From positions 808,501-872,500 of the forward strand of contig NC_135247.1 of the NCBI RefSeq assembly GCF_947623445.1: a DNA stretch of 64,000 bases, written 5' to 3'. Below, in pieces: positions 430-43,340 of the stretch. Origin of the DNA: Clavelina lepadiformis. Taxonomy: Eukaryota; Chordata; Ascidiacea; Aplousobranchia; Clavelinidae. Positions within the stretch are counted from its first letter, which is position 1, and the number at the start of each line of letters is the position of its first letter. The notes under the pieces are model-generated. The model was not told the origin of the DNA, did no database searches, and saw nothing but the letters and a program-made list of their open reading frames with translations. Position numbers and translations under genes: made by a program.

Positions 430-3295
430 ATGGCAATGCCCAAAAGGTTCAGGAGCAATAGTATTCAAGTTGAGGGAAACCACCTCAGGTACTTCTATTG
501 CTGTGATGTTTATTGAAATATGTCGTTTATGCAACAATTTTACACAAAATTTTGTTTAATGTTTATTAAACCGATTAAGACAGTTTTCAAATAATTTTCT
601 CTTAGTATGTTGCAAACTCTTTAATAAAATCTGTCATGTCCTTGCACCACACTAATTATAATTGGGATTAAAAACCATTTGTTTTATGTTTGAACCATCA
701 TTTATGATAGTTTTCTGTTAAATTTAAAATTTGGTGACTATTAATTTCTTTTTATTTCTATTTCAGGTTTAATGGTGATTTATATGGTGGGTTTTGCATG
801 ACTTCATCATTGACATTTGAGAAAAATTACTTTGAAGTTAAATTTCTGGCTATTGGAATCCCTGCTTGGTGTAGGTTATATTTATTTTAAAGGAATATTT
901 TGTAATTGTTGTAGTGTCAGTGAGTGCAGTGTATTAGCTTTATATTGTCTATGTCTTATCTATTCATATGTTTGACATTAATTGTATCATATTTGTGAAA
1001 TGAAATGCAGGCACGATTGGTCTAGCACCTGAAAATTATGATCTGAACAATCAACTTGGCTGGTTTCCTGGATCGATTGGATTCAGAGATAAAGGATGGT
1101 AATTTTATGACGCAGATATGGTCAATATAGATGGTTAAATGGTCATAGTTTGAAAACAGCAGCACAATTACAATGAATCCAAGGCATTTAGCTAATTGAT
1201 ATCAATTAATGAGATAACATTTCAGTTTCAGAGTCTGGCGCAACAACAGGAGTGAAGAAATATCACAAGAAAATTTAAAATACCATAGAAATGACATAAT
1301 AGGATGCGGGATTAAGAGGACTCCAAATGAGTCAAGATGTACAGAAGTCTATTTCACAAAAAACGGAGAGCAGGTAACACTGAATATGTGGTAAAAATAT
1401 TTGATGGGTTGTCGTTAAAAGTTAACCCCTGGGGTTTTGTGTTCAATCATACTCTCTGCTTTTTATTTTCTAAGTATATGATATGATAACTGACCTGTAC
1501 AAATGTAACTTTTTGAATTAAGCAAAATCAATCATTGTTAATTTATTTTCCTGGATAATGGACTGAAGCCTTAACATTTGATTTTGCAGATTTACAGAAC
1601 TACCGTAAATAACTCAGAATACGAGTCTGGCTTTTATCCAGCTGTGGGATTGGGATTGCACGCTGAAGCTCAAATCTTGATTTGGCCAGATGATGATGTG
1701 AGTTCAGGAATGATGAACCATTTATAGGACCAGTCAGCCAACATATTATTATTACTTACATGTATTGAAATGCATTTGTTCTCATTATTTTCCAGTTGTT
1801 TGAAAAATATCTTGAAAGAATGAGTGAGATAAGAAATCTTGAACAGGTATTGCAGGTTTTGCTACCAGTGCTGCTGTGCACAGGTGTGGTCATGTGTTTA
1901 TAACATTGTTGATTTATTAAACTAACTTGTACTCAGTGCCCACTTTATCCCAAGCATCTACCAGCTTAATTTATTTCACAGATTTGTGATCAAATTTCAG
2001 AAACCCATGCACAAAATGCTCCGGTAAGTTTCGTTTGCGTAAATGCATCAAAAAAACATATAAATCATGTCAGCTTGTCTGCCTCTCAGTAAACTTGTCG
2101 CAATAACCATTTAATGTGATCGCTGCAAGTTGCTGGATCTAGTTATTCCTTAGATCAAGTATTATCCGTCTGCTGACGTCGAAGCAGTACAAGGCAACGA
2201 AGGATTTCTAGGCAGGGGTGGTTTTGGTTGTGTCCGTATGGCTTTTACAAAGTCCCTGGGTGTTGTGGCAGTGAAATGCTTTTCAGTATTTGGTGGACGT
2301 GATGATGTTCAACAGAGGGAAGAAAGGTGAGTACGCTCAACTTTGTTGATTGGTCATGGTTAAAAAATACCAACAATAAGTTTTAATGCTTAACCTGACG
2401 GCATTTTCATAGGTTGACAATAGAGCTTGGGCTGATTGCCAGTTCCAGTCATGTCAATATCATGAGAGTTGAAGGATTTACAACCTGGCCTGGGGCGATG
2501 GGAATCCTGTTAGAATACATGCCGGGAGATTTGTGCACTTTCTTGCTTTACAAAATCGACGATAGCTTTCGTATACCAAGAATCCCAGCTTTGATTAAGC
2601 TTCGCATCTGCACTGATGTTGCCAGTGGGATAACATTTCTTCATCACGGCTTTGCTGCTGATCAACGGATAACTCACGGTGACATCAAACCAGAAAATAT
2701 TCTCTTGACTGCTGATCTTCGATGCAAAATTGGTGATTTCGGAGCTGCTGAGTTGGCCACTGTTACAGGAAGCACAATGTCCACGGTTGAGCAACGATGT
2801 CGCGAGCAAACTTTGGTTTACTCCGCCCCAGAGCGCTTGCAGAATCCTCAACTTCAAACAAAAAAAGCAATGGATGTTTTCAGCTTCTCCATGACCATGA
2901 GGGCAACTCTGGTCCGGAAGAATCCAAATATGAATGCTCAAGGTGAAATGAGAGTCGAAGACTATGTTGAACTCATTCGAGAGAGACAGTACCGTCCACC
3001 TCTTGATGATGTTGAAGATCTCGAGGCAAGTTTGACTGATGATGCGGATGTTGCCATCATTGATCTTCTCAAGGATAAAATGGTGAAATGCTGGGAGCAC
3101 AATCCTGATGAGAGGCCTTCCATGATGGATGTTCGTGATCGTCTCCTGCAGTGTCTTTCTACCAAGGATCAATCTGTCATTGCTCAGCATGTGGCGGATA
3201 TCACCAAGCACATGGACATAAAACTACCATGTCGTCAGCAATATGCTTGTGCTCCGATTCAATGTTTTGTCGCTCCTCATTTTGATTCTTTGTAA
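430..3295 (+). CDS. SPRY-domain/TKL (RIPK-like) protein kinase, copy 1
   Basis: Nine exons splice into a 551-residue protein: 430-488, 767-870, 1011-1098, 1226-1373, 1590-1697, 1796-1846, 1982-2023, 2154-2326 and 2413-3295. Residues about 20-167 form a SPRY/B30.2 domain (NYFEVKFL, then FTKNGEQ and FYPAVGLGL). Two short exons (LFEKYLERMSEIRNLEQ and the next) form a brief coiled coil. The kinase starts near residue 201 with a GRGGFG glycine loop, VAVK lysine (about K241), catalytic HGDIKPEN (D about 348), DFG (about 366) and APE. HGD in place of HRD makes it a non-RD kinase, a class that includes IRAK1 and many plant immune kinases. The end of the lobe (CWEHNPDERPSM) is TKL/RIPK-like. All catalytic residues are present, so activity is likely. 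The start is supported because copy 2 begins with the same Met-Ala-Met and a 59-bp first exon. A possible AATAAA lies at 4157. Immune signalling is inference; substrates are unknown. Confidence 0.85.
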
Positions 3296-4559
3296 TTTTA
3301 CATTTTCATGAATTTAATTTAGAAACTTAGAATTAGAAATTTAAAAACAAGTATTAAGCTTGTTGTAAGTTTTAACTGTTTTTTTGCAATCATTGTATTA
3401 TACACATTTGTGATAGGTTATATTACATGGGCTTTATGAATAGCATTGAGCTATAGAACATTGTTAGAATTATTGAACCAGTAGTGACCAAGAAGGCCAG
3501 TTGTGTTTCTGTGATTTTATGTTCTCCGCTTGAAATAACTTTCACAGCAAGACAGGTTTTGTTCGATAAGTTGTTGACATGCTTGGTTGGTTGATGACAT
3601 GGGTTGTGTTATTTTTCAAACTACTTTAGTGTTGGCATATCTTTTAATTTGCTTAATTTAAGATTGCTGGAATGTCAGTGAATCTATATCTTAGCATGAA
3701 GTGACACATCATTGGTGTAATCCAGTTTTGTGATAAGCCGAGATCTTGTAATGTTTATAACAAAGTGATATGAAAGTGCTTTATGCAACGTTGGTGCTGC
3801 CCAGTGTTTAGTTTGTTGCAATCTAGTCCGATTCGCCTTGCTCTAATGCAAAACTCGTGATGTGTACTTGCAATCATGGCTCTGTTTTATTTGTGCATAG
3901 GAAAGGAAATGTTATTACAATGATTTCAATTCTATGATAGTTTCATTATTTGATGTTCCTGCAGCAGCAATGATCTATTCCGTAAAGTTCTGTATTTCTA
4001 ACATTTTGTAACACTTACCGCTGCGACCATGAACGGTCGCACAAACGATGAAAGCAGTTGCTTGCTTGTTAGTAAACTATATGAGATCCGTATTTAATTT
4101 GGCTGCCCAGCTACTAGTTTAGTTGTGTTTTCTGTCGATTGGGTTTTGGATTTTATAATAAAAAATTAGTGTAAATGGCTGTGTGCAATATATCCTGGAG
4201 CATCTGAAATGTCATTAAATACAGAACTTTATTTCCTATGTTTACCTTAATTTTATAATAAACAGTTGCAAGTTTTCCTCAAACAAATTTAACTTGTTTC
4301 TGGAGATCATGGGATGTTTGGCTGAGTTGTGTAATTGGATACTCAGTAATAATCGCAATTATCTCGTTTGGGTTTTTACAAAGTCATCACGAATTTGAAG
4401 AGGTAATTTTACTGCAATTAAATATTCAATTTTGAATAAACTTTTAAACGATCAATTGGATCAGCTTTACAGTGGTCGGTAAAAGACATGCGATCATAGG
4501 GACGTGCGAATTGCAGAAACCATAAGAAGTGATGGATTAAAGCCAGACATTACCAGGCC
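3296..4559. other. 3' flank of copy 1; no gene seen
   Basis: AT-rich sequence with stops in all frames. The first 40 bases or so after the stop resemble the 3' flank of inverted copy 2, then similarity is lost. An AATAAA at 4157-4162 is followed by a GT-rich stretch and could be the poly(A) signal, implying a 3' UTR of about 0.9 kb. Other AATAAA matches are less convincing. Confidence 0.35.
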
Positions 4560-4569
4560 TACCTAACTT

Positions 4570-5440
4570 CTTGGCAAACTGTGAAAATAGCGAAACTCCT
4601 ATGGGGAATTCTTGACAATCGAATTGATTTCTCGACAAGCTCTAAAATTAGGGAAAGAACCTACTTTCTTGACAAGTCTCAAAGATAGGGAAAGCACCTA
4701 ATTTATGGAAAAGTCCTAAAGATAGGGAAAACACCTAATTTATAGAAAAGTTCTAAAAATAGGGAAAGCACCTATTTTCTAGACAAGTCCCAAAGATAGG
4801 GAAAGCACCTAATTTACAGAAAAATCCTTAAGATAGGGAAAGCACCTATTTTATGGAAAAGTCCTAAAGATAGGGAAAGCACCTACTTTCTTGACAAGTC
4901 CCAAAGATAGGGAAAGCACCTAATTTACAGAAAAATCCTTAAGATAAGGAAAACACCTAATTTATGAAAAAGTTCTAAAAATAGGGAAAGCACCTATTTT
5001 CTAGACAAGTCCCAAAGATAGGGAAAGCACCTAATTTACAGAAAAATCCTTAAGATAGGGAAAGCACCTATTTTATGGAAAAGTCCTAAAGATAGGGAAA
5101 GCACCTACTTTCTTGACAAGTCCCAAAGATAGGGAAAGCAACTAATTTACAGAAAAATCCTTAAGATAAGGAAAACACCTAATTTATGAAAAAGTTCTAA
5201 AAATAGGGAAAGCACCTATTTTCTAGACAAGTCCCAAAGATAGGGAAAGCACCTAATTTACAGAAAAATCCTTAAGATAGGGAAAGCACCTATTTTATGG
5301 AAAAGTCCTAAAGATAGGGAAAGCACCTACTTTCTTGACAAGTCCCAAAGATAGGGAAAGCAACTAATTTACAGAAAAATCCTGAAGATAGGGAAAGCAC
5401 TTAATTTGTGGACAGGCCTAATTTGTAGAAATTGGAAAGC
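4570..5440. repeat. Satellite-like tandem repeat: 37-bp monomer, 222-bp higher-order unit
   Basis: Monomers of 37 bp, each ending in a GATAGGGAAAGCACCTA-like core, are repeated more than 20 times. Monomer variants recur in a fixed order of six, giving a 222-bp higher-order period. The variant carrying CCTATTTTCTAGACAAG occurs at 4771, 4993 and 5215, exactly 222 bp apart. The later higher-order copies are nearly identical while the left edge is more diverged, as expected of an array growing by unequal exchange. The array fills the gap between the tail-to-tail SPRY-kinase genes. There are no unique spacers, so it is not a CRISPR array. Confidence 0.95.
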
Positions 5441-6281
5441 TTCTGTGGGGAATGATCACGTAACAGCAGTAAGAATTATGCTTGGGAAAAAGCCTACCAT
5501 GATATTTATTTAAGTACAGAGCTATAAAGTCACGCTCAGGTGCAGATATATAATATAAGTAAGTCATATAAGCTAACCTTCGTGCGGGTTCACAGCGGCC
5601 CATGGCCGAGGGATAGGACTTAGAACGGCTTAAGGCCTTGTTTTGTTTTAGAGTGCCTTTTGGCCTTAGATTGGGTAAGAATGGCTTACCATCTGAGAAT
5701 AATCTAAATCAGCTTATGGCCGTAAATGAAGCTAAAGCACACATTGAAAGAATGGGAGACATTTTTTACTAATCATTTAACTATATCACATATAAAACTA
5801 TTTACAAAGTGCTCATTATGTCACGATATCAATATTATATTTGTTAATATCAATTTGTTATATCTTCATAGTATTGTTGATAATACAGAATTAATGCTAT
5901 ACAAATATAACAGAGCAATGAACCAAACGAAACGGTTGCAACAAACCAAACACGGGACAACACGTACAAAACCTACGTTGTAAAAGCACTTTCAAGACAA
6001 TGAGATACAAGAGCTACTGATTGAAGCTTGCTGAAAAATAAACAGCTAAAAACTAAGACATAACTTTGAATTAACTTAAACTAAAACTAGTAATACAACT
6101 TATAGCAGAGTGTATAGCATTTACGGTCAATGAAAAACTTCAAAGCAAAAAATGCAATTCAATATCTACAAATGGCCCAAGAAAGTAATCTTAAGCCAAC
6201 AATTAAAAAAAATATATAAGTAGGTTAAGTAAAAATTTACCAAAATACGCAATGTCTAAATTAATTGATGAAAATGTAAAA
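5441..6281. other. Spacer between satellite and copy 2; no gene seen
   Basis: AT-rich sequence. Short open frames here, such as 5726-5983 (+), have no recognisable motif and look like chance. The right end is the 3' flank of the minus-strand kinase copy 2. Confidence 0.4.
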
Positions 6282-9200
6282 TTAAAAAGAATCAAAATGA
6301 GGAGCGACAAAACATTGAATCGGAGCACAAGCATATTGCTGACGACATGGTAGTTTGATGTCCATGTGCTTGGTGATATCCGCCACATGCTGAGCAATGA
6401 CAGATTGATCCTTGGTAGAAAGACACTGCAGGAGAAGATCACGAACATCCATCATGGAAGGCCTCTCATCAGGATTGTGCTCCCAGCATTTTACCATTTC
6501 ATCCTTGAGAAGATCAATGATAGCAACATCCGCATCATCAGTCAAGCTTGCCTTGATATCGTCAACATCATCAAGAGGTGGACGGTATTGTCTCTCTCGA
6601 ATGAGTCCAACATAGTCTTCGACTCTCATTTCACCTTGAGCATTCATATTTGGATGCTTCCGGACCAGAGTTGCCCTCATGGTCATGGAGAAGCTGAAAA
6701 CATCCATTGCTCTTTTTGTTTGAAGTTGAGGATCCTGCAAGCGCTCTGGGGCGGAGTAAACCAACGTTTGCTCGCGAAAACGTTGCTCAACCGTGGACAT
6801 TGTGCTTCCTGTAACAGTGGCCAACTCAGCTGCTCCGAAATCACCGACTTTGCATCGAAGATCAGCAGTCAAGAGAATATTTTCTGGTTTGATGTCACCA
6901 TGAGTTATCCGTTGATCAGCAGCAAAGCCGTGATGAAGAAATGTTATCCCACTGGCAACATCAGTGCAGATGCGAAGCTTAATCAAAGCTGGGATTCTTG
7001 GTATGCGAAACCGATCGTCGATTTTATAAAGCAAGAATGTGCACAAATCTCCCGGCATGTATTCTAACAGGATTCCCATCGCCCCAGGCCAGGACGTGAA
7101 TCCTTCAACTCTCATGACGTTGACATGACTGGAACTGACAATCAGTTCAAGCTCTTTCTTAAACCTATGAAAATGCCGTCAGGTTAAGCATTAAAACTTA
7201 TTGTTGGTATTTTTTAACCATGACCAATCAACAAAGTTGAACGTACTCACCTTTCTTCCTTCTGTTGAACATCATCACGTCCACCAAATACTGAAAAGCA
7301 TTTCACTGCCACAACACCCAGGGACTTTGTAAAAGCCATGCGGACGCAACCAAAACCACCCCTGCCTAGAAATCCTTCGTTGCCCGGTACTGCTTCGATG
7401 TCAGCGGATGGATAATACTTGATCTAAGCAATAACTGGATCCAGCAACTTGCAGAGATCACATTAAATGGTTATTGCAACCAGTTTACTGAGAGGCAGAC
7501 AAGCTGACACGATTTAAATGTTTTTTTGGTGCATTTACGCAAATGAAACTTACCAGAACCTTTTGCGCATGATTCCCTGAAATCTGCTCACATCTCTGTG
7601 AAATAGATTATGATTAGGCGTATACGATTTCTGGTAGATGTTTCGGCAAATCTTTGCACTGAGCACAAGCTTGTTTAATAAATCAACTTCATTATACACA
7701 AACATATAACCATAGCTATTTAAGGCAGAATTAGTAGGAACATTTTTAACACCTGTTCAAGATTTCTAATCTTACTCATTCTTTCAAGATACTTTTCAAA
7801 AAACTGGAAAATAAGAACAGCAATTACGTTTCAATACATGTAAGTAACAATAATATGTTGGCCGATTTATCCTATAAATATAAACGGTTCACCATTCCTG
7901 AACTCACATCATCATCTGGCCAAATCAAAATTTTAGCTTCAGCTTTCAATCCCAATCCCACAGCTGGATAAAAGCCAGACTCGTATTCTGAGTTATTTAT
8001 GGTAGTTCTGTAAATCTGCAAAATTAAATGCCCATCACCCAGCAAAATAAATTAACAATGATCTGTTACCATTCACTTAGAAAATAAAAGCAGAGAGAAT
8101 GATTGAACACAAAACCCCAAGGGTTAACTTTTAACGACAACCCATCAAATATTTTTACCACATATTCAGTGTTACCTGCTTTCCGTTTTTTGTGAAATAG
8201 ACTTCTGTACATCTTGGCTCATTTGGAGTCCTCTTAATCCCGCATCCTATTATGTCATTTCTATTGTATTTTAAATTTTCTTGTGATATTTCTTCACTCC
8301 TGTTGTTGCGCCAGACTCTCAGACTAAAATGTTATTATTCCCAGTTTGTTTGAAAGCCTATTTATTTATGATTTTCTAAGATTTATGCAATTTATTTATT
8401 ATACCTTTATGCTTGTGATAAAATTCTATACCATAACATTACTTTCCCTTGTCTCTAAGCCCAATGGATTTAGCAAACCAGCCCAGTTCGTCATTCAGAT
8501 TATAATCGTCAGGGACCAGACCAATGGTACCTGCGTTTCATTACAACAAGATATTTATATCTAACAATAAAAGGTCTTTAATATTGTAATAACAAAACTT
8601 GTACAATGTATTCTCTTGACGACTATCTATAACCTACACCAAGGATGTGGATTTCCAACGTTTAGAAATTTGACTTCAAAGTAACTTTTCTCAAGTGTCA
8701 GTGGTGACGTCATGCTAAATCCGCCATATAAATCACCAGCAAACCTGATGTGTATAAAAATCGTTTGCTATTGTTATATAAGCTTTATTGCTTGCCACGG
8801 TTTAGCTCTATTTCTATTCTTCGTTTAACTTGCTGTGAATGCTTTAAACCAGGGATGTCCAACCTGCGGCCCACCTGAGATTTTTGTGCGGCCCCCTAGT
8901 CATTTTCACTACAAAACTACACTTTCACTACACTACTTCATGTACCCATTTTTCTTGAAATTTAATAGGTTTTGCGGCCCATTCAATTATTTCAATTGAC
9001 AATGCGGCCCACTATAATAAAAGGTTGGACATCCCTGCTTTAAACTGTCGTATTCCAAGATCATACAAATGGTAATTTTGTTATTGGCGCAAGACTAATA
9101 AGCCTAAAAGTATAAGGGTGCTCAACAACATTATGACATCGTATTATGTATACACAAAAGTGAAGGGATTCGCACAACGTGGTGACTTTGCTTTGCTTTG

Positions 9201-10127
9201 GAAATATTGTTGAACAACGACACTATACTGTTTGGGAGAAAACGACAATGGAGCGATACATAAACAGGCAAATTGATAAATTAAGGAAAAGACAGTGGCC
9301 TGGAAAAAAAGAGCTGTGCGTAGGTTGGGAGAAGTGTCACGTGAAAGAGGAAGTCAACCAACTGAAACGACTTCAAGGCTAAAACCGAAGCGTTCTTGGC
9401 GCGAAATTAAGCTGCTAAGGTATGACGCAATACTTGTTGCACATGCGCTTAGAACTGTTGGTCGTTGGCAACATGGAAGAGAGTAATATTAGAAAACATG
9501 GTGATGCAGACTACAATGAAAATCAAAAGTGTCTACTACGGCTATGTTGTTGCTTGAAACCTGATTATCTTGGAACCTCTGAAATTCACGCAAGCAAATG
9601 GTCTTAGAGAATCAAACGGGGGAGCCTTAGCAGAAAGAACGCAGAAAAAAGTTTTGTAAGCAATTTACAATTTTACAAAGCTTTAAATTTTTTACAAAAA
9701 TAAAACATTAAAAGTTAAAATTAAAAATTACAAAGAATATTACAAAGTATAAAAGTTCGTGAAAGCATCCAACGAATTTGCTAAAAGTGATTGTCAGAAT
9801 CCAAAAAATGTTACGTAACAGCAGGGATTCGTAACAGACGAAGTACAGGATATTAAAGAAACAAAGCCGGCCGGGAGATCCTCTTTTCTGCTTTTTATAC
9901 CGTGCTTGCACCGTGAAAAAAGTTTCATATTTAAAAACTTTCAGAAAATATTTTGACCCGAAAAATTATGGTAGGCTGCTTAATTTACACATTTATCTGT
10001 CATTACAAAGAAATAGTTTAAGAAAATCTATCGTTATCTCAACGAAATACAAAAAAGCGAATCCATACCTAAGATTATTCCCGTCAACTTGAATGGAGTT
10101 ACTTCTGTACGATCTCTGCATTGCCAT
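6282..10127 (-). CDS. SPRY-domain/TKL (RIPK-like) protein kinase, copy 2 (inverted)
   Basis: Nine minus-strand exons give about 552 residues: 10069-10127, 8638-8744, 8443-8530, 8176-8323, 7908-8015, 7753-7803, 7554-7595, 7251-7423 and 6282-7164. Intron positions and phases match copy 1, and exons 4 to 9 have identical lengths. The SPRY domain (SYFEVKFL, GLVPDDYNL) and short coiled coil (FFEKYLERMSKIRNLEQ) precede a kinase with GRGGFG, VAVK, HGDIKPEN, DFG and APE. The 277 residues from MRVEGF to the stop differ from copy 1 at 14 positions. Several introns, for example the last one and the one after exon 4, are almost identical to copy 1. The first intron is enlarged and carries a hAT-like MITE at 8850-9037. 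No disabling change was seen. It is convergent with copy 1. Function is inferred only by architecture: a non-RD kinase with a putative recognition domain. Confidence 0.84.
8850..9037. mobile_element. hAT-like MITE (188 bp) with perfect TIRs and 8-bp target duplication
   Basis: A perfect 15-bp inverted terminal repeat, CAGGGATGTCCAACC, bounds the element at 8850-8864 and 9023-9037. It is flanked by identical 8-bp direct repeats CTTTAAAC at 8842-8849 and 9038-9045. The 8-bp duplication and CAGG-type ends indicate the hAT superfamily. The interior has GCGGCCC motifs and no coding capacity. It lies in intron 1 of SPRY-kinase copy 2. Intact termini and target duplication suggest a fairly recent insertion. 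Confidence 0.93.
9046..10068. other. Remainder of copy 2 intron 1; no gene seen
   Basis: This part of the enlarged first intron of SPRY-kinase copy 2 holds overlapping plus-strand open frames between 9179 and 9607. None has a recognisable motif, signal peptide or splice context, so I treat them as chance. The extra length relative to copy 1 points to inserted sequence of unknown origin. Confidence 0.35.
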
Positions 10128-11871
10128 ATAGTATTTCTTTATTCTTCAAAAATAGATATAACCGTACAACAAATCATGTAATAGCCACAGCGATGTGTCT
10201 CTGCACAAAAATGAAAATGCATTGATTGTTGATGCAGTCATTTAATAGTTATAAGTTGTTGTGAAAACACGAAGTTTGCATAATTTGAAGAGCTTGCTTA
10301 AAGAAATTGAATTCCTCTGTTAAACGCCGATTTCAGAGGGTGCTAGCACATGCGGAAACAGCCAATTAAAATGAGGTACTTATATAGACTTGTATTTAAC
10401 GTCGAAGGAATGCTTAGAAAAGTTATATGCAACCTTGGTATTCTAACTTCTGCTATTATAGCCTCTTTTTAACAATAGTAATAAAGTAAAACAACGACTA
10501 TTCTGCTATCTAACTGGTCCAAACAGTCTTAATTTTTGGCGTTTGACTTATTAAAGCGAAGCATCCTGATAAGCTTGCGAGTGTGAGTCACTTGAAATGC
10601 TTATTTACCGAATCACCGGGAAACTTGCAATGTTTATTCGCATCTTTATAACATCTTATACCATTTATATATTTATCCCTTATTTTTGTTGTTTCGTTAC
10701 AAAACGTTGTACAAATAAGTTTAACCTGCCATACATGTGACATCAGGCGTCATCATCTACGCAGCGAAAGAACTCACCTACAGCGAAGCAACCAACCACC
10801 CAACTTCCGCTTTTTTCGCTTGTAGATTGAATCCTGCTTACGTAAACGGAAGCTGATAAATCAGTTGACAGAAACGTACGGTTCGACCTTAGTTTCATTT
10901 GGTCAGATTCATAAAACAAAATTTTGTGTAATCGATCTGGCCTGAACGCGAATCGTTTTAACTAAATATTATTTGAACAGGTTCTCGTATTTGGCTTGGT
11001 GTTTGGTGAAAATGCTTGGCTGGCCTGAATGTATATAGTTTTTACGATTGTTTGCAGTTGGGGTTTGGTGTTCTCGTTCTGAGCCCTGAACGCAAATTCT
11101 TTTTTACAACATCTTTAATAGAGCTCTCGGAACAGTTTGCGATCTTTCGCCAGCCCTTATAGTTCGGCTAAATTTTTAACCAGGCCCTGTCAGTAATGTA
11201 ATTGTACCACCTGGTTCTTAAACATGACTTGGTTTGCAAGTCTTTCCTGAGGTATTCTGGTGACATGATCAAACCATCGTAGTTAGGACCTTTTAATTTG
11301 AAGAAGTAAGGGCTCAAAATTTAAAGGATTACGGGTTTCGGTGCTGCGAGCTTGATCTAGTAACCTTACACTAAGATTCTAAAACTTGTCATCATATATC
11401 ACCGTTTGGTGTAAACGTCCCAGCTTGAATGTAAATCGTTTTTGTCGATTTCATTGATCTGGTCGAATTTAATGAGGTCATAAAATTTGATATGAATTTT
11501 CCAATCTTAGCGCAATTTGTTTTTACGATTTGTTAAAAAACGACCTTAATATGCCAGCAACGATTGTAGGGCTGAGCATTTTTCTGAACCGAAACCGAAC
11601 CTGAAAAATGAACGATAAGAAGCAAAATCCAAAACAGAAATCGAACTGTTTTAAGCAGCAACCACTTGTAAGCGTAACATTAAAAAATTCAAACTATAAT
11701 ATATTTGTTTATTTTGCCAGCAAGTTTTTTATTCTTGTCCCAGACAACACGCACCATGTAGGGCCGCACAAAACAAACTGATGGTCAGCAGTGTGGGCCG
11801 CAATTCACAAATTATCTCATAGTTGGCAATCAACGTGTTACACTGAATTTAAAATATAGAAAATGCTTTAC
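10128..11871. other. Intergenic stretch with degenerate repeated phrases
   Basis: No gene was found. Between about 10930 and 11560 related phrases recur irregularly on the plus strand, of the form CCTGAACGCAAATC followed by a T-rich run and ACGATT. They look like an old diverged repeat or transposon relic. From 11576 to 11660 there is an ACCGAAACCGAACC-rich stretch, and around 11745-11800 there are GGGCCGCA phrases reminiscent of hAT MITEs. None has clear termini. A kinase half for the neighbouring SPRY relic is not present here. Confidence 0.3.
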
Positions 11872-12968
11872 CTTTCGATAATTTGTTGCTTTATTAAAAC
11901 TTCGTCGACTTTTGACAGTCGAATAGCCGGATAAAAAGATACACCTCTGCCCATCGTACGTTTTGACTAGACCTAAGAAATTGAGAACATTAGGGGAAGC
12001 CTAATATCTTTCATACTTATTTGGCTTGGTTAGGCTACATCACAAGTGAAATGCTCTCGTACAATTAACAATACTTCAGTTCATTGCATTTATGTAAAAT
12101 GTACCAAATCCAGGCACGAGATAATATAAAATCTAAATAAACACAATGATAAAATTAATAAGTTTTGTTTAATGATAAGACAAGTCCAACATCTAAATAT
12201 AGCAAAAAGTGTAAAAACAAATATGTTTCTTAAAAGGGCATTTTCAGAAAAATATCGATAATACATGAACAAAATAAACATAACACGCCTCTATGCCATT
12301 TTTTGTGACAAAAGTATTTTGCTCTGTTGGTGAATCATAGTTTATGCCGACCACAACACAATCTCCAGAGGAAAATTTGTCTGATGATTCAACTGTATCT
12401 TCACCATCCTGTCTGATGCTATAATAGATTTTTACATGCCATGCAAACTATGCTTAGTCGATGTGCAGGTTTTGTAGAAGTTGCTAACAATTTAGATAAT
12501 TGTAAATGATAAAAAGCTGGAATCTTCTGTTCGAAGAAAGAGAAGTGTTTTCAGAAAAAGCAACACGGTATCAAAATATAATAACCTCAAACTGAAGAAA
12601 GTCTTTGCACAACTTAAACTTGGCGATAATTTTGCAGCTCAGACTCCATGTGTCGAGTTCGTCTGAAATCTGAATGCATTAGTAATAATAGTAATAATAA
12701 TGGTATTTGTTTATTTGATTTTTCTGGTTTTGCTTAAGATTTGAAATGTTCACCAGGTCCACTAAACAAGAGCAAGTGTCGTTACTGTCTTGCCCAAGTG
12801 CATTATAATGATAAAATTTCGTGGCATTGAGCATCAACCTGCATACATAGCTGGACATCTAGTTCTCCGGCCACTGCATAGACTACCGATAGACTTTACA
12901 CTGAGTGTAAAAAAGATCCAAGTAGGCTCTTCAAATCATGACTTTGGGAACAAGACCAACTGACACAT
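11872..12968 (-). pseudogene. Decayed fourth SPRY-domain paralogue lacking a kinase
   Basis: Three minus-strand blocks resemble successive SPRY exons of the neighbouring kinases. Block 12905-12968 reads VSVGLVPK and then, after a one-base frame change, SHDLKSLLGSF, aligning with GLAPENYDLNNQLGWF of copy 1. Block 12288-12422 contains SSGDCVVVGINYDS and TFVTKNG, matching the IGCGI...YFTKNG core. Block 11872-11966 contains VSFYPAIRLSKVDEVLIK, matching GLYPAIRLLCGARVQLLK of copy 3. Plausible splice sites persist at several edges. No kinase or coiled-coil exon follows downstream before copy 2 begins. The frame change and missing kinase argue for a relic, though a truncated SPRY-only gene is possible. 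Confidence 0.6.
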
Positions 12969-15420
12969 CTGCAAATACAAAAGCATCTTGGGAAAAATTA
13001 AAACAATGTTGACAGGTGTATAGTGCACCATCGGTATCTGGTATTATTGCCTTTGATGTTGTGTTGCTATGACACCAGTCAATGACTTGAGTCATATTTT
13101 TTTGAATGGCTGGACCGGAGTCAGTTTGTTGAAATGAGTCAAAACAAGTTAAAGTTGGCATGAAAACAGATTTCAAAGCTTTTATTTTTATAAATTATTA
13201 TTTGATGTTTCAAAAAGAAGTGAGCTTGCTGTGAGGTGACCCCGGCAAACAGTTTAAATCCACTTCACTTGAACTAATACACTGCATTGCTGTAATAAGT
13301 ATGAAGATTTCCAAAAACAATAAAAAGTAATTTGCAAACTACCTGAGTAGCACATGAGCGTTTGCCTACATGTTTCACTTCAAAACACTTGTTTTCCTCT
13401 TACGGCAAGGTTGACATGAAATAGCTCCATAGCTTAGTTGCATTGGCGTGTCTGTTAAAAATAATGTAAAGAAATATGCAACAGTTTTTCAATATTTGCT
13501 CATTTCTTTAGATGCATTAATTTAAATTCTTACTTGACTGAATTTCTACTCACTTTGATGGTTTTGTCTGTCCGACAACTTTTGTTTTCCATTATAGTTT
13601 GAATGGAATAGTTCTATTGAAGTTAAAAATAGCTTGGTCCAGAATGAAAATTTTTCTAAATATTACATCCACACTCCTTGAATCAGAAAAGTTATTCAAC
13701 TTTCACTGAAAAGTCTTTGGATGATTTATTTTGTCAAACTCCTTTGCTTTTATTATGAAGAAAAGTCATTTCAGTTCACTTTATTGCTTTTGTTGGATTT
13801 ACTGCTTTACATCACATGTCCATAGATTTGCGTACAACTAAAATTTATCTACCCAGTTCAAAATTTACAGGATTTCCTTTGGGCTATGTCAGTGAAAGGT
13901 AGATGTACTCAAAAAGAATGGGCAAGGTTTATATAATCAGCCAAAACAAGTCTGGGTGCAAGCGGTAACTCTGCTTTATTCCGCAACTCCATTTAAGGCA
14001 ATGTTTGATTAACAACCGTGTTTGATGGTGAAACTGCAATCATTCATCATTTCAAGAAAGAAATTGTGCAATTATATAATGAACACACGGTGCAAATTGC
14101 ATTTACCTTGAACAGTCCCAAATCCTGTTTGTACATTCAGAATCCTCATCGATTTTGTCCGATAAGGGTTAATTGTTACAGGGTCAGATAAGCAAACACA
14201 AAAGTGTAGCTGAGACCACAATAAAAATATAGTAAATTTTGGACCAAAAAAATTACAATTCATCAACACAGAAAAAAACTGAGTTAACAAATGTTTATCC
14301 TTACACTAACCTTGTATGAATATGACCACAGCAAGATGTTGAAATGTTAAATGAGCCAATGAAAGTTATCTTTGTAAGATTTTAAAGTCCCGATTATTTT
14401 CTCCTACTTTTGCATTAAGTGCAATTAAAAACAAGTTGAAAGAAAAATATAACATCATTACCTTTGCTTTTTTCCAATAAATTTTAGCATCCAACACAAG
14501 TGCAATTAGGTATTTTGGCCAGAAACGAAAACTGCTGGAAATTGTACAGGCAAAGCATGATCACAGGTATTTTCTATTTCAGCTCCTGATTGGTGGATTG
14601 GTGGGTAAAACGTGTTAGAGTTAAGGATTTGTACAAGGACATAATGCCATAAAGTTAGACTATACTCGCTCAGTTATCAGTCCAAGGTTTGTGTACAACA
14701 CAGCATTAATGAGCTGATACAGCATTTCTTTACACGCACATATGAAACACATGGCACTTGAATCTAACAAATATCTTGCAGGACTACAATAAAAATACAT
14801 TCATGTAAATTTGCACGAAAGTTGGCCCTGAAATATTCACAGCGGCATGATCAGTACGTAGCAGAAAATCTAGAGCCACAAAAAACTGTCAAACATCTGC
14901 ACAATTATTACTTGCATTTGAATATCAAGAGTAAAGCCAATAACAAATCAATTTACCAACTTAAAAATACGCTTTTGAACTAGCAGCAATGAATAAGTTA
15001 TGACTGATACATCAATATTTTTAAAATAATGGACAAAGCAGTCCTCTTTCTAGCTTCTAAAAAGCAGCAAAATTGTGTGAGGTTAGCTGGTGAGTTCGAT
15101 TGATATAAAAAATAGCAACGATGCCGTGCAAACAGGTAAAATTACTTTGAAAGCCGAAAACTGATGTTTGTTGTAAAATGATAAAACGTGCAAAATTTTT
15201 CTTTTCACTCAAGGACTTCTTAAGATAAATGGCAAGACATAAAAACTTCACACTACATAGTCCTAATAATTGCCAACACAAGCAGGTTTTTATTTCTTTT
15301 CATGACGATGTATGTGTGCATGCAACTAAACTAAAGCAAGTTATTAAAAGCTTAATCTCAGGTGAATTAAACAAGTATTTAACGTCCAAAATTCACAACA
15401 AATGTGACGAAACAATGCAA
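12969..15420. other. Intergenic stretch; no gene seen
   Basis: AT-rich sequence between the SPRY relic and copy 3. Short frames such as 14072-14290 (-) and 15057-15281 (-) have no recognisable content. I looked for the N-terminal SPRY exon of the relic (a FEVKF-like phrase) on the minus strand and did not find it. The part next to 15420 is the 3' flank of the minus-strand copy 3. Confidence 0.4.
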
Positions 15421-18400
15421 CTAATTACTTTTCCACTCAAACTTAGGTGCAGGAAATTGATCAATCTTGGCACAATCATACTGATGTTGACATGGCAATT
15501 TGATGTCCATGTGCTTGGTGATATCCGCCACATGCTGAGCAATGACAGATTGATCCTTGGTAGAAAGACACTGCAGGAGACGATCACGAACATCCATCAT
15601 GGAAGGCCTCTCATCGGGATTGTGCTCCCAGCATTTCACCATTTCAACCTTGAGAAGATCAATGATGGCAACATCCACTTCATCAGTCAAACTTGCCGTG
15701 AGATCCTCAACATCATCAAGAGGAGGACGCCAAGCGTCGCAAGCAAGATCAACAAACTTTTGTGTGGGTAATGTTTCATCTCCGTAACTGTTTGGATGTT
15801 TTCGGATCAGGGTGGCACGCACAGTCATACCGAAGCTGTACACATCCATGGCCTTACTCACACGAACTTGCCTATTTTTCAAGAGTTCAGGAGCTGCGTA
15901 GATCTTGGTCATTGCATGTTTTGTGTCATTTTTCAAGTGTGATTCACTTTCAGTACAGGTTGCAAAGTCGGCTTCACCTAAATCGCTGATTTTGCATCGA
16001 AGATCTGAGGTCAATAACACATTGTGAGGTTTAAGATCTCCGTGTGTGATGCGTTGGTCGTTAAATCCATGATGTAGAAAAGTGATACCGCTTGCAACGT
16101 CAGTGCAGATTCGAAGCTTAATCACAGGGGGAATGCAGGGAACATGAAATCGGTCGAGACATTTGCCCAAAATGAGATCTCTCAAGCTCTGACCTGGCAG
16201 GTATTCCATGATTAAACCTGCAGCTCCGTGCCAGTCCGTGAAGCCTTCGAGCCGCACCACGTTGACGTGACTCGATAACTTCAGGTTTTCAATCTCCCTC
16301 ATGTGCCTGCAAACAATAAACACAACATATTGATGTACCCTTGAACTTTGCGTCCCTGATTAACCAATTTGTAATTTACAACAAAATAATTAAAAAATGT
16401 TTAAACATCACGCATAGCAAAGACACTATACTATACAATACTTTTCACGAGATTCTTTAATTTCCTGCTTGGAACCAGACAAGGGCAGACACTTGATGGC
16501 GATGGCACCCAGCGCGGAGGTGAAGCCAAGTCTGACGCACCCAAACCCTCCCTTCCCTAGAAATCCTTCCTCGCTCTTCACAGCAAGGACATCCTTGGGT
16601 TGGAAGTGAGTAGCATGCTGGGATACGGAAGAAGAGAAATCATTTCATTGAAAATGCCGGCGAATGAACAAGCTTAATATTTCTTAAACAGAGTTAGAAT
16701 TAGTTTTAGGAAGGTGCATGAAAGAATTCCCGCAATTGAACACAGAATTTTAATCTATGTCAAAGTAAGCAGTCTTTTGTTGAAAATCTACTTGAGCAAG
16801 TTTCGTATGTGGTCAAGCATGCTCTGACAAGCATTGTACTCAGTTGCACTCCACTGTTCCATAATTGCAACGTAAAGCTTAAAAATCTTACCATCGTTTT
16901 GGCGATTTGACCTTTTTCAAATTCATTATAGCGCTTTTTGTTGACCTAACCATACAAGATTGCTTCATTAGCAATGCACAATAATATAAGCTGACAATTT
17001 GCAAAATGATTTCCATGAAGTTTTCTGTAAAAATAAAGGTTGTAACCATTGCTCCTACCTCATCCAATGCAGTGATTTTACTCTGACACTTTTTCAACTT
17101 GTTTTCCAAATCAACCACTTTCTCCTTGTAAAGTTTTATTTCCTGAAATTCATGAGGTATGTCTAAGTTGGCTATGATGGTTGTTGCACTCAATGGTCAT
17201 AATATCTGTTTGTCACAGCACAAAATACAGAATTTGTATTCATTAAAGCAGTGATGACCAGTAGAGAGCATGTGTGCCCAATGCAGCAAACCACAGGTTG
17301 TGAAATGGGACCACACAGGACGATTTGAATTGGAAATAAACTTGAAACTTCTTAGTTGTTTGTAGTCGTTTTCTCAATGTTAATTATAGCTAATTTTGTT
17401 TCACACTATTTTGCCCAAACGTTAAATCATAGACCACCCCCAGCAAGTGTGTTAATTTAATGCACAAAACAACTAAAGGTTAATATCTGAAATTTTTTAT
17501 TTAGAAGTCACATAACATTTCTGCAATCAGACATGAATGGTATATTTTAAGCGAATGCAAAAAGATACATAAAGTTTTGTTTTCTTGTGATAAAAGATTT
17601 GTTATAGCGTTGTGCTTCTGCTGTAACTTGGCAGAGTCGTTGGCAAGGAGCTCCCACATTAGAAAGCCATACTAAATTTATTTATTTATGAAAGTTTGGG
17701 CAAGATATGATCATGTAAGCGCAACAATAACACGTTGTTTAAAGCATCCAAAAATATTTATACTTCATGGCAAGTAAGTAGTATTAGACGTTAGAATGCT
17801 ATTGCATTTGTGCTGGACAGCTCTGCAGAAAAATCTTGTTATTAAGGCAAGTGACATCACATCACAGAATAATACCAACCTCTTCTTTTTCTCTGACGAA
17901 GCGTTGCAAGTTTTGTATTTCCTGCTTTGTCTTATTCAGTTCACTCTGAATATTGGGGATTCTCACCTTTTTAAATCATAACATGTCACCAATTTTTAGA
18001 CTAAAAACACAACAGCAATTATAATTATTCACACTTGAGGTTTAAAAGCTCGCCTTCTTCATACAGCAAATTTTTACCACCTTAGCTCATTCTTAAGTTT
18101 ACAGAAATTCTAGGGATGAGCTCTGGACACAACAAACTATAACTCATGATTGATAACAATTAATTAATAATTACAAGTACCGAAGATATTAAGACTTGAG
18201 ATATTAAGAAATGATACCATGGAGCTATAATGATACAAAACCCTTAACAATAAATACCATTAACATATCATAAGTAACCTAAATAAAAGTAGAATTCATT
18301 AAAAGAAACTGTAGAGCTTACATTTTCCAATTTGGCTACTTTTTCTCTAAAATTCTGAGCTTCCTGTCCATTGTCATCTGCCTTGCGTTTATATTTGTTG

Positions 18401-21400
18401 ATTTCCTTAACAAACAGAGCACGGTGCAGATTGTTACAAAATTACAGCAATTTGCACAGAAGTGTAACTAAACTTTGCAGACTTCAAAGTAATACCAAAG
18501 CCTCATACACAGTTATAACAAGTAAAACCTTTTCTTTTTCTGTGTTTTCTTGTTCAAGCAGGATAAGTTTATCATTGTTTATGTGGTTTGCAGTGAAGTT
18601 GGAATTCTATGATATAGATATATAAAAGCATTAGACGCATTTACAAGTAGCATAGCGGGATGTGGCTTGCCTAAACCATGGCAATGTCTGCAAACAAATG
18701 AGCTCAATGTCTGAATTAAAAACACAACCTCGGCTTTAGAAGTCCATTTCAAAAGTTGAACTCTGGCACCACACAAGAGTCGTATTGCTGGATACAACCC
18801 AGACGAGTTTGATGGAATATCGATAGTTGTTGAATAAAACTTCAAAAACAGTTGATGAATATCATTTAAGATTGTTGCAAACATCACATAGATTCAATGT
18901 TGCAACAGATCGCACAAAACATCAAACAAAATTACACAAAACACTTGCAACAATCAGTAGATGTGATTCTTAAAAATGCAGTAAATTGGCTAAATTGCTT
19001 TTTTTGCACGACTGCAGGTCCGTATGAAATCCTACCGACTATCACCATTTAGTTTGCTTTCACCTTTTCTCCATTTTTTGTAAAATAAACTTTGTTGGTT
19101 TTCTTTTTGAAGTGACCACACTGAGTAATCTCAATTCCACAACCGATTACATCGCCAGTCTCGCAAGTTCCAGTTGAGACTACGGCTCCATTTTTCCCAC
19201 TACCATCATGGAATTTTCTACAATAAATGTTTAAATAATTAATTTATTTACCTTACACAACGTACAACTTACTATTGCATATATCCGCAAATTGTTAAAG
19301 AATTCATAAGTCTGCTAACCCCACAGGTCCCCACCCCCAACAGCTCCACCAACAGATAATAATAAACCTGATCAGGGTAATTCCCAGGGATTTTTAATTT
19401 TTATCAGGCAGGAGTCAAAGGCTCGTAAGTTAGTGAACTATGGTTGTACCAATTAACCAGAAGATAAATGCTTATCAGCCATCTTGCTGGGTGATCTGTG
19501 ACTTTTTCTTGGCCCCTTATCCAGTTGTAATTATTAATTATCAGCCATAACTTATAAAATTGCCGCAGCATAAACAAATTAATGTAAATTTATAAGTTTT
19601 TACAACTGTATACAAATGTGATTTCCAGTAATTATCACATTGCCGCTTTGGAATGAAATGCATTATCTTAATATAGTTAACACAGATACCACTTGAGACA
19701 CTTGCAGACTGGCCAACACATGGCTATTTTCAACATCTAAGTGATATTCAAATGAGAATTCAGCACCCACCCACCATGCACCTACCCACTGTAGCAGCAA
19801 TAACCAATGGAATGAGGAACATAGCCGGGAGGTTCATCAAGTTGATAGCTATCTGACACAAGGCCAACCACAAGCACGGCACCTATAGTAGATGACAACA
19901 TCAACATCAATTAAAACAAACATGAATATGACTTGAGTATCTACTGAAGTGTTCGTCAAATAGAAAAAAATTACTGACCTGTTAGCTTTAGAATTTTCAC
20001 TTCAAAGTAGTTGATTCTTTCTGCCAGGGGGATCACACTCGCAAAATATCCAGCCACTTTGTAATCGCTCGCCCTAGAAAATAAACCAATTGCACTTAAA
20101 AATGGTTACTCACAGTAAACACAGGCGATCATTTTTTAAAGTGATAATTTTGCTGTTACTCAAACCACCGTCACGAACTTGTAGTTTTTAATGATAAAAT
20201 GAAGTGAACAGAAGAATATCTAGCAACTATTTGAGTCAACAATTTAATTCAGCAAAAGAGTGAAGAGATACAGCGAAAAAAGCTTTTCTTTTCTTCACTT
20301 TGATATCTTTGATATGACAATAACATACTGACTAACATAATAAATAGTTACAATGGTTGTTGCATATCCGTAAGCATGAAACAAAACATTCAGTCAAACT
20401 TAAAAGAGAAACAAAGTGCTAATGACAAATATATACCAAAGAACAAACAGAAAAGACAAAATTGACTTTAATAGAGAAAGCAAGAACCACACAGAATTGA
20501 ACACTACAGGGTGGCACGATTAAAACTTTGCACATTCTCTCTTCTCTGCATTGTAGAGCAAGGCTCTAAATGATACTACGCGTCACTTGAAAAATATATT
20601 TTATAAATAGGATGCCTAAATGCATGAACTCAAAACAAAATTTGTAAAGATGAATAATAAAAAGTGATCAAGTTTAATAGGAAAATCTTTTTTGCAGCTG
20701 CTAATTTTTGAGAGAAAATGCGAAAAATGTGCTGAACAAAAACAATGGAGAAAGTAGAAACAGAAGCTAAATTTATATATATAGCCAATTCCTCATTAAC
20801 TAACAAGCATACAAAGCAACAGATCAACGCATGAAATTGATGTGGAAATCTCTTAATACAAAGTGGAAAGTTTGGGAGATCAAAAACTGATGAATCAAAG
20901 AAAATATGCAGATAAATAGCTATGAAATGTGCAATATTCGCACTGTTTCACAATTAAAATTATAAAGTTTGGTTGTGTTCTGAAATGTGCAACATTCTTA
21001 ACTCCAGGTATCAAATATAGGTTAACAGCACATGGCGATATCGTTACACCCCATCAACGGTGACAATGTGCGTTAGTCCAATGTCAATATGCAGTATGTT
21101 TGCAATATTACCATTTTCTGTTTGATAATCTCTAGGGCAGAAAATTTTGTTAGCTTGTTTAACTCAACATAAATACAAGGCATTTACATAATACAGTGCA
21201 TAAATGGGAGGTTGTGCCCCCTTCAACCTTTAAGGTGGTCATATGGGGAATGGGGATAAACAAACCCTACAGTCCTATTGCAGCAGACGTGGGTCTTAAC
21301 CAGATTATACGTCTTGTAGTCTCGTCTCGTCACGTCATTACCTTCTACAACGCTAAACGTATGAAGTTGATGAGTTATAGCTAGGCCTGCTTACTAAGCG

Positions 21401-21568
21401 GTCATATGCTAGGCCTGCTTATGAGTATGACCTAAAACTGTCACAGTGTAGCCTAAGTGTTAGGCCTAATAGGATACTGTAGGCTACCATAGGCCTATAG
21501 GCTAATACTCACCGTAAAATGTCTCCTTCAACATCAACACCATTATGTTGCGACCATAGTCCCAGCAT
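15421..21568 (-). CDS. SPRY-coiled coil-TKL (RIPK-like) kinase, copy 3
   Basis: Thirteen minus-strand exons give about 659 residues: 21513-21568, 21112-21129, 19979-20073, 19786-19882, 19064-19217, 18729-18839, 18529-18606, 18322-18405, 17880-17966, 17059-17142, 16892-16945, 16442-16617 and 15421-16306. SPRY covers about residues 20-177 (NYFEVKIL, VYFTKNGEK, GLYPAIRLL). Five phase-0 exons encode a roughly 129-residue charged coiled coil (178-306), for example EIKLYKEKVVDLENKLKK. The kinase has GKGGFG, AIAIK (about K348), HGDLKPHN (about 453) and APE, with DLG replacing DFG (about 473). The last 80 or so residues are nearly those of copies 1 and 2, while the rest has diverged. The 18-bp micro-exon is the least certain part. 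The start aligns with copies 1 and 2 (VEGDILR against VEGNHLR). It is probably an active non-RD kinase; multimerisation by the coiled coil is inferred. Confidence 0.8.
21381..21500. repeat. TAGGCCT-rich short repeat cluster
   Basis: TAGGCCT and its close variants recur about six times in 120 bp in intron 1 of copy 3, including two copies of a CTAGGCCTGCTTA phrase about 30 bp apart. It looks like a short degenerate tandem or palindromic repeat. AGGCCT is itself palindromic. No function is evident. Confidence 0.4.
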
Positions 21569-22905: not shown

Positions 22906-25900
22906 CTACTGCAAATTATCGAAAATCTTTTCCACGTCTGCAAATACTGTTTCTACGTCTCGTTCGGAATCAACCTGAAACGAAAAAAAAAAAAAGAAAT
23001 TAATATTACGGGATTATCACAAAACACGTGGTCGGCAGAGCAGTTTAAATCGTATTGTTTTGCCGTCGAATTATTAGATGGTAATATTCTCGTGCCGGGA
23101 AGTATTATATGAAAATATCAAATAAAATTTGCGACAAACGGAACTTACACACAGGCTAGCTGGCAAATTGGGGCTCGAACGATGAACAATCATCGCCGGG
23201 TTTAAGTCGTGCAAAGACTTTCGTCAGTACGAGGATAAACATAAATTATATTATCCTACAACTATCAAACTAAGCCACCAATAACAATCCATATTCGCAT
23301 GTCAATTTGGTCAACTCTGGTCTTAATTGTATGAAGATAACTTACTCGCTTCACTTTGTTTTGTTCCTCGTAATATTTAATGACGGGTTCAGTTGAATCA
23401 ACAAAAGTTTTCAAACGTTTTCTGATCGTTTCTTCGTTGTCGTCGACCCTGCCACTGGTTTCACCTCGTTTCAGGAGACGTTTCACCATCGTGTCTTGAG
23501 AAACGTCGACCCACAGAACAAATGTGCAAGTTCCAACCTAAAGGCCACATAAATAACTCAAAGCAATATGATATCTGTAGTATATACAGCTAGAATTTAT
23601 GGATACGAGGTACACAGTATGTGCAGGCAAGGCACTAGTAAGTAAAGGCGCTATTTTTCAAGCGTTGCATCTTTGACTTACTACTTTCTCAAACTCAATT
23701 CCTTGTTGAACTTCACGGGGATAACCATCGATCAAGAATTCTTTGCTGTCAGGTTGCGCGGCAATGTTGTCTTTAATAAGCTTCAGGATTGTCTCCTGAA
23801 TGACAGAGCTGCTTAGTAAATATTTACAAAGTTCAAGCACAAAAAGGGCTAATGCACAATACGCCATAATATGGGTGTGATAAATCAACTGCAATACATG
23901 AAATATCAATTTGACTTTAGCACAAGTAGAAAAAACAAACAGGGCTTTACACATTGCAAAAGTTTTATAAAATCTCTGTAATTGCAAACAACATCCTTCT
24001 AATAACTACTTGAAACTTTGTAAGAGGTAACACAAATTATATCATTTCTATGGAGCGAGGAAAACTCCGGACAACAACTTACAAGAGGTACAAGGTCGCC
24101 TCTTTCCATCATCGCCTTCAACTCCTCGCCTCTTGGTGACCCTGACGCGACCTCTGCCCTCAGAAGGTCACCAGACGAAAAGTGAGTGAAACCATATTTT
24201 TTAACAATCCTCTCACATTGCGTGCCCTTTCCTGAGCCGGGGCCACCTTTAAATAATGAATAATGATTCATAGAACTGAAAATAACTCGATGTTTGTATC
24301 TCGACGTGAAGAACACAAATTAAGACAGATACTCAAGATATGAATAAGTCAAATAGAAAACATACCAATGACAAAAACTATCGTTTTGCTTCCCATAGCA
24401 CCTGCAACAAATACAGTAAAAATATCATCAAACTGTTAGTTGTGTATTTGTTGTTGTTGTAGAACTATCGCTAATTGTAATCAGTTCATTGCTATTGATC
24501 AAGCATGCCAAATCTTAATCAATTTAGTCTTAAACAAACATATAATTCACAATTTGTTATAAACACATTTCAGCCATATTCGTTACTGAAGACAAATAAC
24601 ATAGTATTTAGGGCTTATAATGTGACCACACACTTACCACTGGTCGTCTTTTCTCTGCTTCCTTCCTGCTCAATGTGCTGAAATCAGTCAATATAGCTCT
24701 AAGCTTATAAGTTATAACCTTACATATACAGCTAAGCATAAGCAATATGAGAGAATTATAAAGAGCTGATGACTAAATTATTAATGATTGATGTGGCAGC
24801 TGTGCCCCAGTACTCCCCAGCATATAGTAATGGAAAAGCACACCAAGCAAACTGGTCAAAGTCACAAACTGACATTAAATACCAGGCTATTCCACTTGAG
24901 TACACACAAATAGCAACAAGGGAAATGACGTCATGGGTTGTAAATTACTAGACATGAATAAGACCAGGCAGTGTGTTTGTTTGACTTAGCACACAGCATA
25001 TGTTCTGAGATTGTGTTACAAAACTGAAGCGTTAAAAGGAACAGATAGCAATGTAAATGTAAACTTATGGTAATGCGTTTTTATTATTAACATTAGATCA
25101 TTGTATTAAATATTAATAGTATTAACTGAACATTAAAGGTGCTGTCTTTTTATGTATTTGAATCATAAGATGTTAACACATATCTGCAATAAAAATTTAA
25201 GTTGTTAGAAACCAAATAAATTTAGTTTGGAAAATATGGCCATGTTATGAAAAAGTGAATATATACGTATATTGCAACATTATGAATATGAGTGCTTCCT
25301 GTATAACATGGCCAAAGCAAGCAATCTGGTAAGCCCAGTGTAAGAGTCACTTTCAAGATTGCAACGGAATAATCCTATCACAATCAAATATAAGCAGTTT
25401 GTGACACAGGAGAATACAATAGAATCCGGCAAAGAATGATTGATTAATACACAATGGATGTACATGTGGGCCACAATTATCAAACTGACTGGTTTAAAAA
25501 TGTCTGTGTAACTGGCATTATTTACAACCTCAGGGTTATAAATGCAAAAACATTGAACGCATTTGATGTAGTAACATGAGTGTGATATGATTTCTATCGC
25601 ATGAGGTTAAAATTTTAAAATACTTGCAAAAAAGCTCACAAACCTAAAAAGGTATTTCCATGGTAACAACCTTTAGAAAAGTTAAAAAAAATAATTGGTG
25701 TAAACCGGGGTTATACTGAACAACATCAATAATAATTGGTACGCGTTTACTAAGTAAATACTGGTGTAAACTCAAGCAGTACGTGATTCAATATTAGTTA
25801 TATTATTCAATATTACAACTAATACCTCGTGATCGGTTGTGGATAATTGTCCGAATTCTTGATAGGTCATTTGTGGAATTTCTTAAACAGAACAAACGAG

Positions 25901-43322: not shown

Positions 43323-43340
43323 ATGAAATGGCAGCGATAA
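43323..43340 (+). promoter_or_regulatory. Five-codon overlapping uORF at the TLR start
   Basis: An ATG five bases before the TLR start opens a five-codon frame (MKWQR) that ends with TAA at 43338-43340, overlapping the TLR start in another frame. If this ATG is in the mature mRNA it could reduce TLR translation. If splicing to the nearby CTCTACAG acceptor places the 5' end here, it would lie at the very start of the exon. Confidence 0.5.

Follow-up and report, generated by a model that had tools for sequence, protein, structure and literature searches.

A predicted SPRY-kinase gene family in the ascidian Clavelina lepadiformis and its possible role as one-piece cytosolic receptor-kinases

We analysed a 64,000-base stretch of chromosome 8 of the ascidian Clavelina lepadiformis (C8:808501-872500; hereafter the window), in a genome of 209,060,895 bases on 95 contigs. 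The window holds three genes, A, B and C, each predicted to join an N-terminal SPRY domain, through a helical linker, to a C-terminal protein kinase. The three models were rebuilt from splice sites and reading frame and are predictions; every intron begins with GT and ends with AG, and a single frame is open throughout, giving proteins of 551 (A), 552 (B) and 627 (C) amino acids. Both domains score above the Pfam gathering cut-offs in all three proteins, SPRY with E-values of 1e-10 (A), 1.3e-9 (B) and 1e-11 (C) and Pkinase with 1.2e-30, 2e-29 and 1.8e-34, respectively. In A, B and C, SPRY and kinase families alone exceed the Pfam cut-off, and no nucleotide-binding domain does so. A first-pass annotation of this DNA had proposed three local genes with an N-terminal SPRY domain and a C-terminal RIPK/TKL-like kinase carrying an HGD catalytic loop. 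The rebuilt models bear this out, occupying exactly its span of 430..21568 and passing the Pfam comparison.

Gene A lies on the + strand (430..3295) and has nine exons (430-488, 767-870, 1011-1098, 1226-1373, 1590-1697, 1796-1846, 1982-2023, 2154-2326 and 2413-3295). Exons 1-5 (430..1697, +) encode the SPRY domain, which Pfam places at residues 40-159. The linker exons 6-7 (1796..2023, +) follow in phase, and exons 8-9 (2154..3295, +) encode a Pfam-supported kinase with an HGDIKPEN catalytic loop, a DFG motif and a conserved C-terminal tail. Gene B, on the - strand (6282..10127), is an inverted copy of A that likewise has nine exons (10127-10069, 8744-8638, 8530-8443, 8323-8176, 8015-7908, 7803-7753, 7595-7554, 7423-7251 and 7164-6282) and shares 91% identity with A across 1778 bases. 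Splice sites, frame and Pfam support its SPRY exons 1-5 (7908..10127, -), the first of which stands 1.3 kb upstream behind an enlarged intron; its kinase exons 8-9 (6282..7423, -) encode the same HGDIKPEN loop and match Pfam. Between the two inverted genes, a 37/111-bp unit is tandemly repeated (20.5 copies of 37; window 4637-5412).

Gene C, also on the - strand (15421..21568), is built from eleven exons (21568-21513, 20073-19979, 19882-19786, 19217-19064, 18839-18729, 18405-18322, 17966-17880, 17142-17059, 16945-16892, 16617-16442 and 16306-15421). SPRY exons 1-5 (18729..21568, -) are followed in phase by a longer series of linker exons (6-9; 16892..18405, -), coiled-coil-like by eye, and by kinase exons 10-11 (15421..16617, -), in which the catalytic loop reads HGDLKPHN and DLG replaces DFG.

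The SPRY-kinase family extends beyond the window and comprises four intact-looking genes plus relics in the genome. A kinase search of the genome gave 135 hits, the best four of which were A, B, D and C, in that order, and all four carry SPRY exons. The kinase of gene D (C8:1540336-1541202) lies about 0.7 Mb from the window genes and is 63% identical to that of A. Gene D looks intact, with a first exon resembling those of A-C, a much longer linker, and Pfam matches to SPRY (E 9.4e-11) and kinase (2e-33). Its middle part gave a visual impression of GBP helical domains; no GBP_C match was found there at E<=0.1, and we do not claim one. The SPRY introns of A, B, C and D share the phases 2, 1, 2, 0 and 0, so the pairing of SPRY with kinase is not chance.

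Relics accompany the intact-looking genes. Decayed SPRY exons were recognised by eye between B and C (12280..13450, -, running from near 13450 to 12280), without a visible kinase and absent from the tblastn matches. Another relic stands immediately left of the window at C8:806393, a third lies downstream of the kinase at C8:1531225, and C8:291264 is a kinase fragment interrupted by a stop. No SPRY match was found in the 7 kb upstream of the kinase at C8:624890. A genome search with SPRY exons 4-5 returned six places, namely A (two), B (two), C (one) and a SPRYD3-like gene described below, and missed D.

The best solved match to the SPRY domain, in a comparison covering A, C and D, was SPRYD3 (2yyo for A and C), with E-values of 1.3e-18 (A), 3e-21 (C) and 1.7e-18 (D). 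The first-pass annotation had likened the domain to the recognition module of TRIM proteins. That analogy does not hold, because PRY, RING and B-box were all absent from A, B and C at a Pfam E<=0.01 and the nearest solved relative is SPRYD3; we therefore rejected a TRIM-type SPRY. A SPRYD3-like gene is present on the same chromosome (locus L052, C8:998500-1005500), sketched here with a home-made gene finder that over-splits exons. It has two SPRY copies, as opposed to the single SPRY stretch in each of A-D, and no visible kinase across the 7 kb read. Its first SPRY is 33-40% identical to those of A-D and has introns of phase 1, 2 and 0 at corresponding places. This gene is a likely donor of the A-D SPRY domain; the derivation is not proven, because another SPRY protein of the genome (locus L001) is about as close to the SPRYD3-like gene (32% identity) as A-D are.

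The kinase is RIPK-like, nearest the RIPKs both by sequence (gene C) and by fold (last exon of A). Among solved structures, the closest to the gene C kinase by sequence was RIPK1 (6.9e-22), followed by RIPK3, RIPK2 and IRAK4. The structure predicted for the last exon of A (298 residues, glycine-loop exon not included; 18-row alignment; mean predicted local distance difference test score, pLDDT, of 82) matched RIPK1, RIPK3 and RIPK2 best by fold among the 50 matches listed, with a rice receptor-like kinase at rank 3. The catalytic lysine, the HGD aspartate, the asparagine and the aspartate of DFG/DLG are kept in all of A-D. The non-RD loop noted in the first-pass annotation is indeed present in A, B and C, and it proved uninformative about the SPRY fusion. 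HGD occurs in 30 of the 30 kinase loci fetched from among the 135 hits, A-D included (29 directly; in L031, the thirtieth, the frame is split and the loop lies in a different piece). The loop is therefore a mark of the whole kinase family, and we rejected it as a mark of the SPRY-bearing genes. In a kinase tree of 28 of these 30 loci, chosen by the motif HGD[LI]K (which dropped L024 and L025, both HGDVK) and with no named outgroup, A, B and D grouped together with support of 98/95. Related kinases also form tandem clusters at C2:3.31-3.43 Mb, C4:22.3-24.5 Mb, C5:21.8-21.94 Mb and C9:14.69-14.75 Mb, and TPR-like helical exons, identified by eye, follow the kinases read at C2 and at C3:2.78-2.79 Mb.

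Comparison of A with B showed an excess of synonymous over nonsynonymous change per site in SPRY exons 1-5 (p=4.8e-7), the linker (p=0.029), the kinase N-lobe exon (p=0.019) and the last kinase exon (p=1.3e-4). Purifying selection between these two genes thus extends to SPRY, linker and kinase alike. For SPRY exons 4-5 alone, the differences are too few to judge (p=0.63). Synonymous divergence (dS) is unevenly distributed along the four genes. In the last 100 codons it is 0.07-0.31 over the six A-D pairs, or 0.20-0.31 once A/B is set aside, whereas in the SPRY domain and the first part of the kinase it runs from 1.4 to saturation in the five pairs that remain. Given this difference, the simplest reading is that gene conversion has homogenised the 3' end among A-D, reaching as far as D, about 0.7 Mb away. 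SPRY exons 4-5 of A and B (dS 0.04) also look converted, and exons 1-3 (dS 0.6 and above) do not.

Several of these observations bear on whether SPRY and kinase belong to one protein. In none of the four genes does the kinase N-lobe exon contain a methionine ahead of the glycine loop. Since the pairing recurs in four genes with shared intron phases, the N-lobe lacks a start methionine, and purifying selection between A and B includes the linker, the facts say that SPRY and kinase form a single predicted protein in A-D. The recurrence spans strongly diverged pairs, with the high dS noted above outside the 3' end in all but A/B.

Other members of the kinase family appear to have different modules in front. 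At C8:19.06 Mb (C8:19061888-19064420; L028, L044), a NACHT exon, the top-scoring of the 97 NACHT hits, joins a kinase exon, with a single short intron of phase 0 (about 134 bases) between them. The joined protein reads in one frame with matches to NACHT (1.6e-21) and Pkinase (1.9e-41), and the locus appears to encode a NOD-like receptor (NLR) with a built-in kinase. NACHT hits in the genome number at least 97, most of which fall within a long C4 array (C4:0.3-5.4 Mb and C5). At two further loci, C3:2.69 Mb (C3:2682896-2697300; L048, L042) and C2:2.38 Mb (C2:2377505-2386600; L049, L016), GBP-type GTPase exons (best E 1.3e-15 and 1.2e-4, respectively) stand upstream of a kinase. On the same strand, the GTPase exons lead into helical and coiled-coil exons, mostly of phase 0, and then into the kinase, and we regard both loci as apparent GBP-kinase genes. 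They were sketched with the same gene finder, and Pfam covered their GBP exons only. When ten helical exons from related kinases were compared singly with Pfam, nothing scored above a curated cut-off. At C5:1755000-1762400 (L041), ankyrin exons that look FEM1-like lie upstream of, and on the same strand as, a chromosome 5 kinase of the family, as either a neighbour or a fusion.

The remainder of the window contains features of other kinds, all recognised by eye. Exons resembling a UMP-CMP or adenylate kinase lie beside gene C (window 23265-24319, -). Further along, a single-exon open frame of 1167 amino acids with leucine-rich repeats and a TIR-like end resembles a Toll-like receptor (43226-46729, +), and another open frame resembles part of a nuclear hormone receptor ligand-binding domain (54138-54608, -).

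The predicted proteins share parts with several known systems. RIPK1, RIPK2 and RIPK3 provide the nearest solved kinase domains; in the RIPKs, however, the kinase is N-terminal and is followed by CARD, Death or RHIM parts. In A-C it is C-terminal behind SPRY, and Pfam found no CARD or Death domain, RHIM being too short for Pfam alone to exclude. IRAK4 is among the next nearest solved kinases to that of gene C, and IRAK1 carries HGD; unlike both, A-C have SPRY in place of a Death domain, of which Pfam found none. SPRYD3 provides the best solved SPRY match, and the SPRYD3-like gene shares the intron phases 1, 2 and 0 with A-D, from which it differs in its two SPRY copies and the lack of a kinase in the 7 kb read.

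The combination of SPRY with a TKL kinase is known from SplA of Dictyostelium, a protist protein for spore differentiation. SplA has been placed in the TKL group (PMC1420674). The likeness, predicted on the Clavelina side, lies in the pairing of SPRY and a TKL-group kinase within one protein. Since the Clavelina kinase is nearest RIPK/IRAK and the SPRY domain nearest SPRYD3, the comparison suggests that the join arose independently of SplA. SPRY also serves as a module of immune receptors in the teleost NLR-B30.2 proteins. Among fungal NLRs, SPRY is reported in 46, in every case C-terminal and accompanied by ankyrin repeats, and a C-terminal PKinase in a single NLR (PMC12258605). These receptors resemble A-D in using SPRY or a kinase as an immune-receptor module, but they are built round a nucleotide-binding domain, whereas A-D join SPRY and kinase directly. 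We found no described animal SPRY-kinase family among the open PMC literature matches listed, which is no proof of absence.

How might such proteins work? We propose that each gene encodes a one-piece cytosolic receptor-kinase, a reading that we consider evenly balanced between right and wrong. The N-terminal SPRYD3-like SPRY domain would bind a protein ligand, the helical or coiled-coil linker would gather molecules together so that clustering activates them, and the C-terminal RIPK-like kinase would then phosphorylate its neighbour and, subsequently, a downstream partner. This scheme draws largely on RIPK biology. We also infer a role in defence or cell-death signalling. A sensor role is plausible, and the sister kinases joined to GBP and NACHT modules help it. 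We favour defence over housekeeping because of the local turnover, the gene conversion, and the NACHT and GBP sisters. On the best reading, one-piece cytosolic receptor-kinases make up a modular family of which A-D are one branch. Given that some members of the larger kinase set seem to have a GBP-type GTPase or NACHT in front, the sensor may be interchangeable and the output module constant.

A number of observations weigh against this proposal. No positive selection on the SPRY domain was found between A and B, where the ratio of nonsynonymous to synonymous divergence (dN/dS) is 0.28 with no nonsynonymous excess. Both C and D carry DLG where DFG is expected, and C is not firmly grouped with A, B and D in the kinase tree, where all four together have support of 58/65. 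A six-frame Pfam scan of the genome for SPRY listed 13 places, all of them outside A-D and more than 15 kb from any kinase hit. The genes may also produce an isoform with SPRY alone, or one with the kinase whose translation begins at a linker-exon methionine. Finally, co-location by itself says little for the sister fusions. Within 15 kb upstream on the same strand, a GBP hit accompanies 2 of the 123 kinase hits (shifted mean 0.26, P 0.057) and a NACHT hit 1 of the 123 (shifted mean 1.28, P 0.47), in weak shuffles that used 123 of the 135 kinase, 62 of the 101 GBP and all 97 NACHT hits. With proximity this weak, the NACHT case rests on its splice geometry and the GBP cases on their exon chains.

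The alternative that survives best is that A-D encode real SPRY-kinase proteins of ordinary cell biology, in which the SPRYD3-like SPRY domain would select a self substrate for the kinase, for example in cell-cycle or budding control. We regard this as possible, short of probable. Kinship with SPRYD3, including the intron phases shared with the SPRYD3-like gene, and the purifying rather than positive selection on SPRY between A and B mean that such a role may apply. Human SPRYD3 is itself reported to act in spindle assembly by conferring substrate specificity on the MYCBP2 ubiquitin ligase (PMC12664034). On the other hand, the turnover of local copies that leaves relics, the gene conversion, and the sister kinases joined to NACHT and GBP modules would be more usual in defence families.

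We consider it improbable that the genes are partly decayed or encode pseudokinases without activity, retained for a while through gene conversion. The many relics nearby, the DLG of C and D and the homogenised 3' end would suit such a history, but four genes are free of stops, the catalytic lysine and aspartates are retained, and the purifying selection seen between A and B includes the kinase exons. Least probable by our estimate, and judged unlikely on several grounds, are SPRY and kinase genes that are merely adjacent and are transcribed separately, or as an operon such as ascidians are known to have. In gene A, a short read-through could terminate SPRY exon 5, and exon 6, in the linker, contains a methionine, but the identical pairing and phases in four genes, the N-lobe exons without a methionine before the glycine loop, and the purifying selection on the linker all argue against separation.

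Returning to the proposal of one-piece receptor-kinases, we tentatively suggest a broader scheme, which we rate as rather less than an even prospect. In this scheme, this tunicate would possess modular, one-piece cytosolic immune receptor-kinases with one RIPK-like module placed behind SPRY, a GBP-type GTPase or NACHT, so that the vertebrate arrangement of a sensor and a recruited RIPK would be fused into a single protein. Gene conversion would keep the output of the SPRY branch uniform while its sensors diverge. For comparison, vertebrate NOD receptors reach RIPK2 by CARD recruitment (PMC6321704). If the scheme is true, an animal closely related to vertebrates would, with its kinases fused to SPRY, NACHT and GBP modules, show an alternative wiring of the same kind of pathway. 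These kinases would also offer a compact system for asking how sensor clustering turns on a RIPK-like kinase, in which the uniform 3' end and the diverged SPRY halves would naturally set a constant output apart from a variable input.

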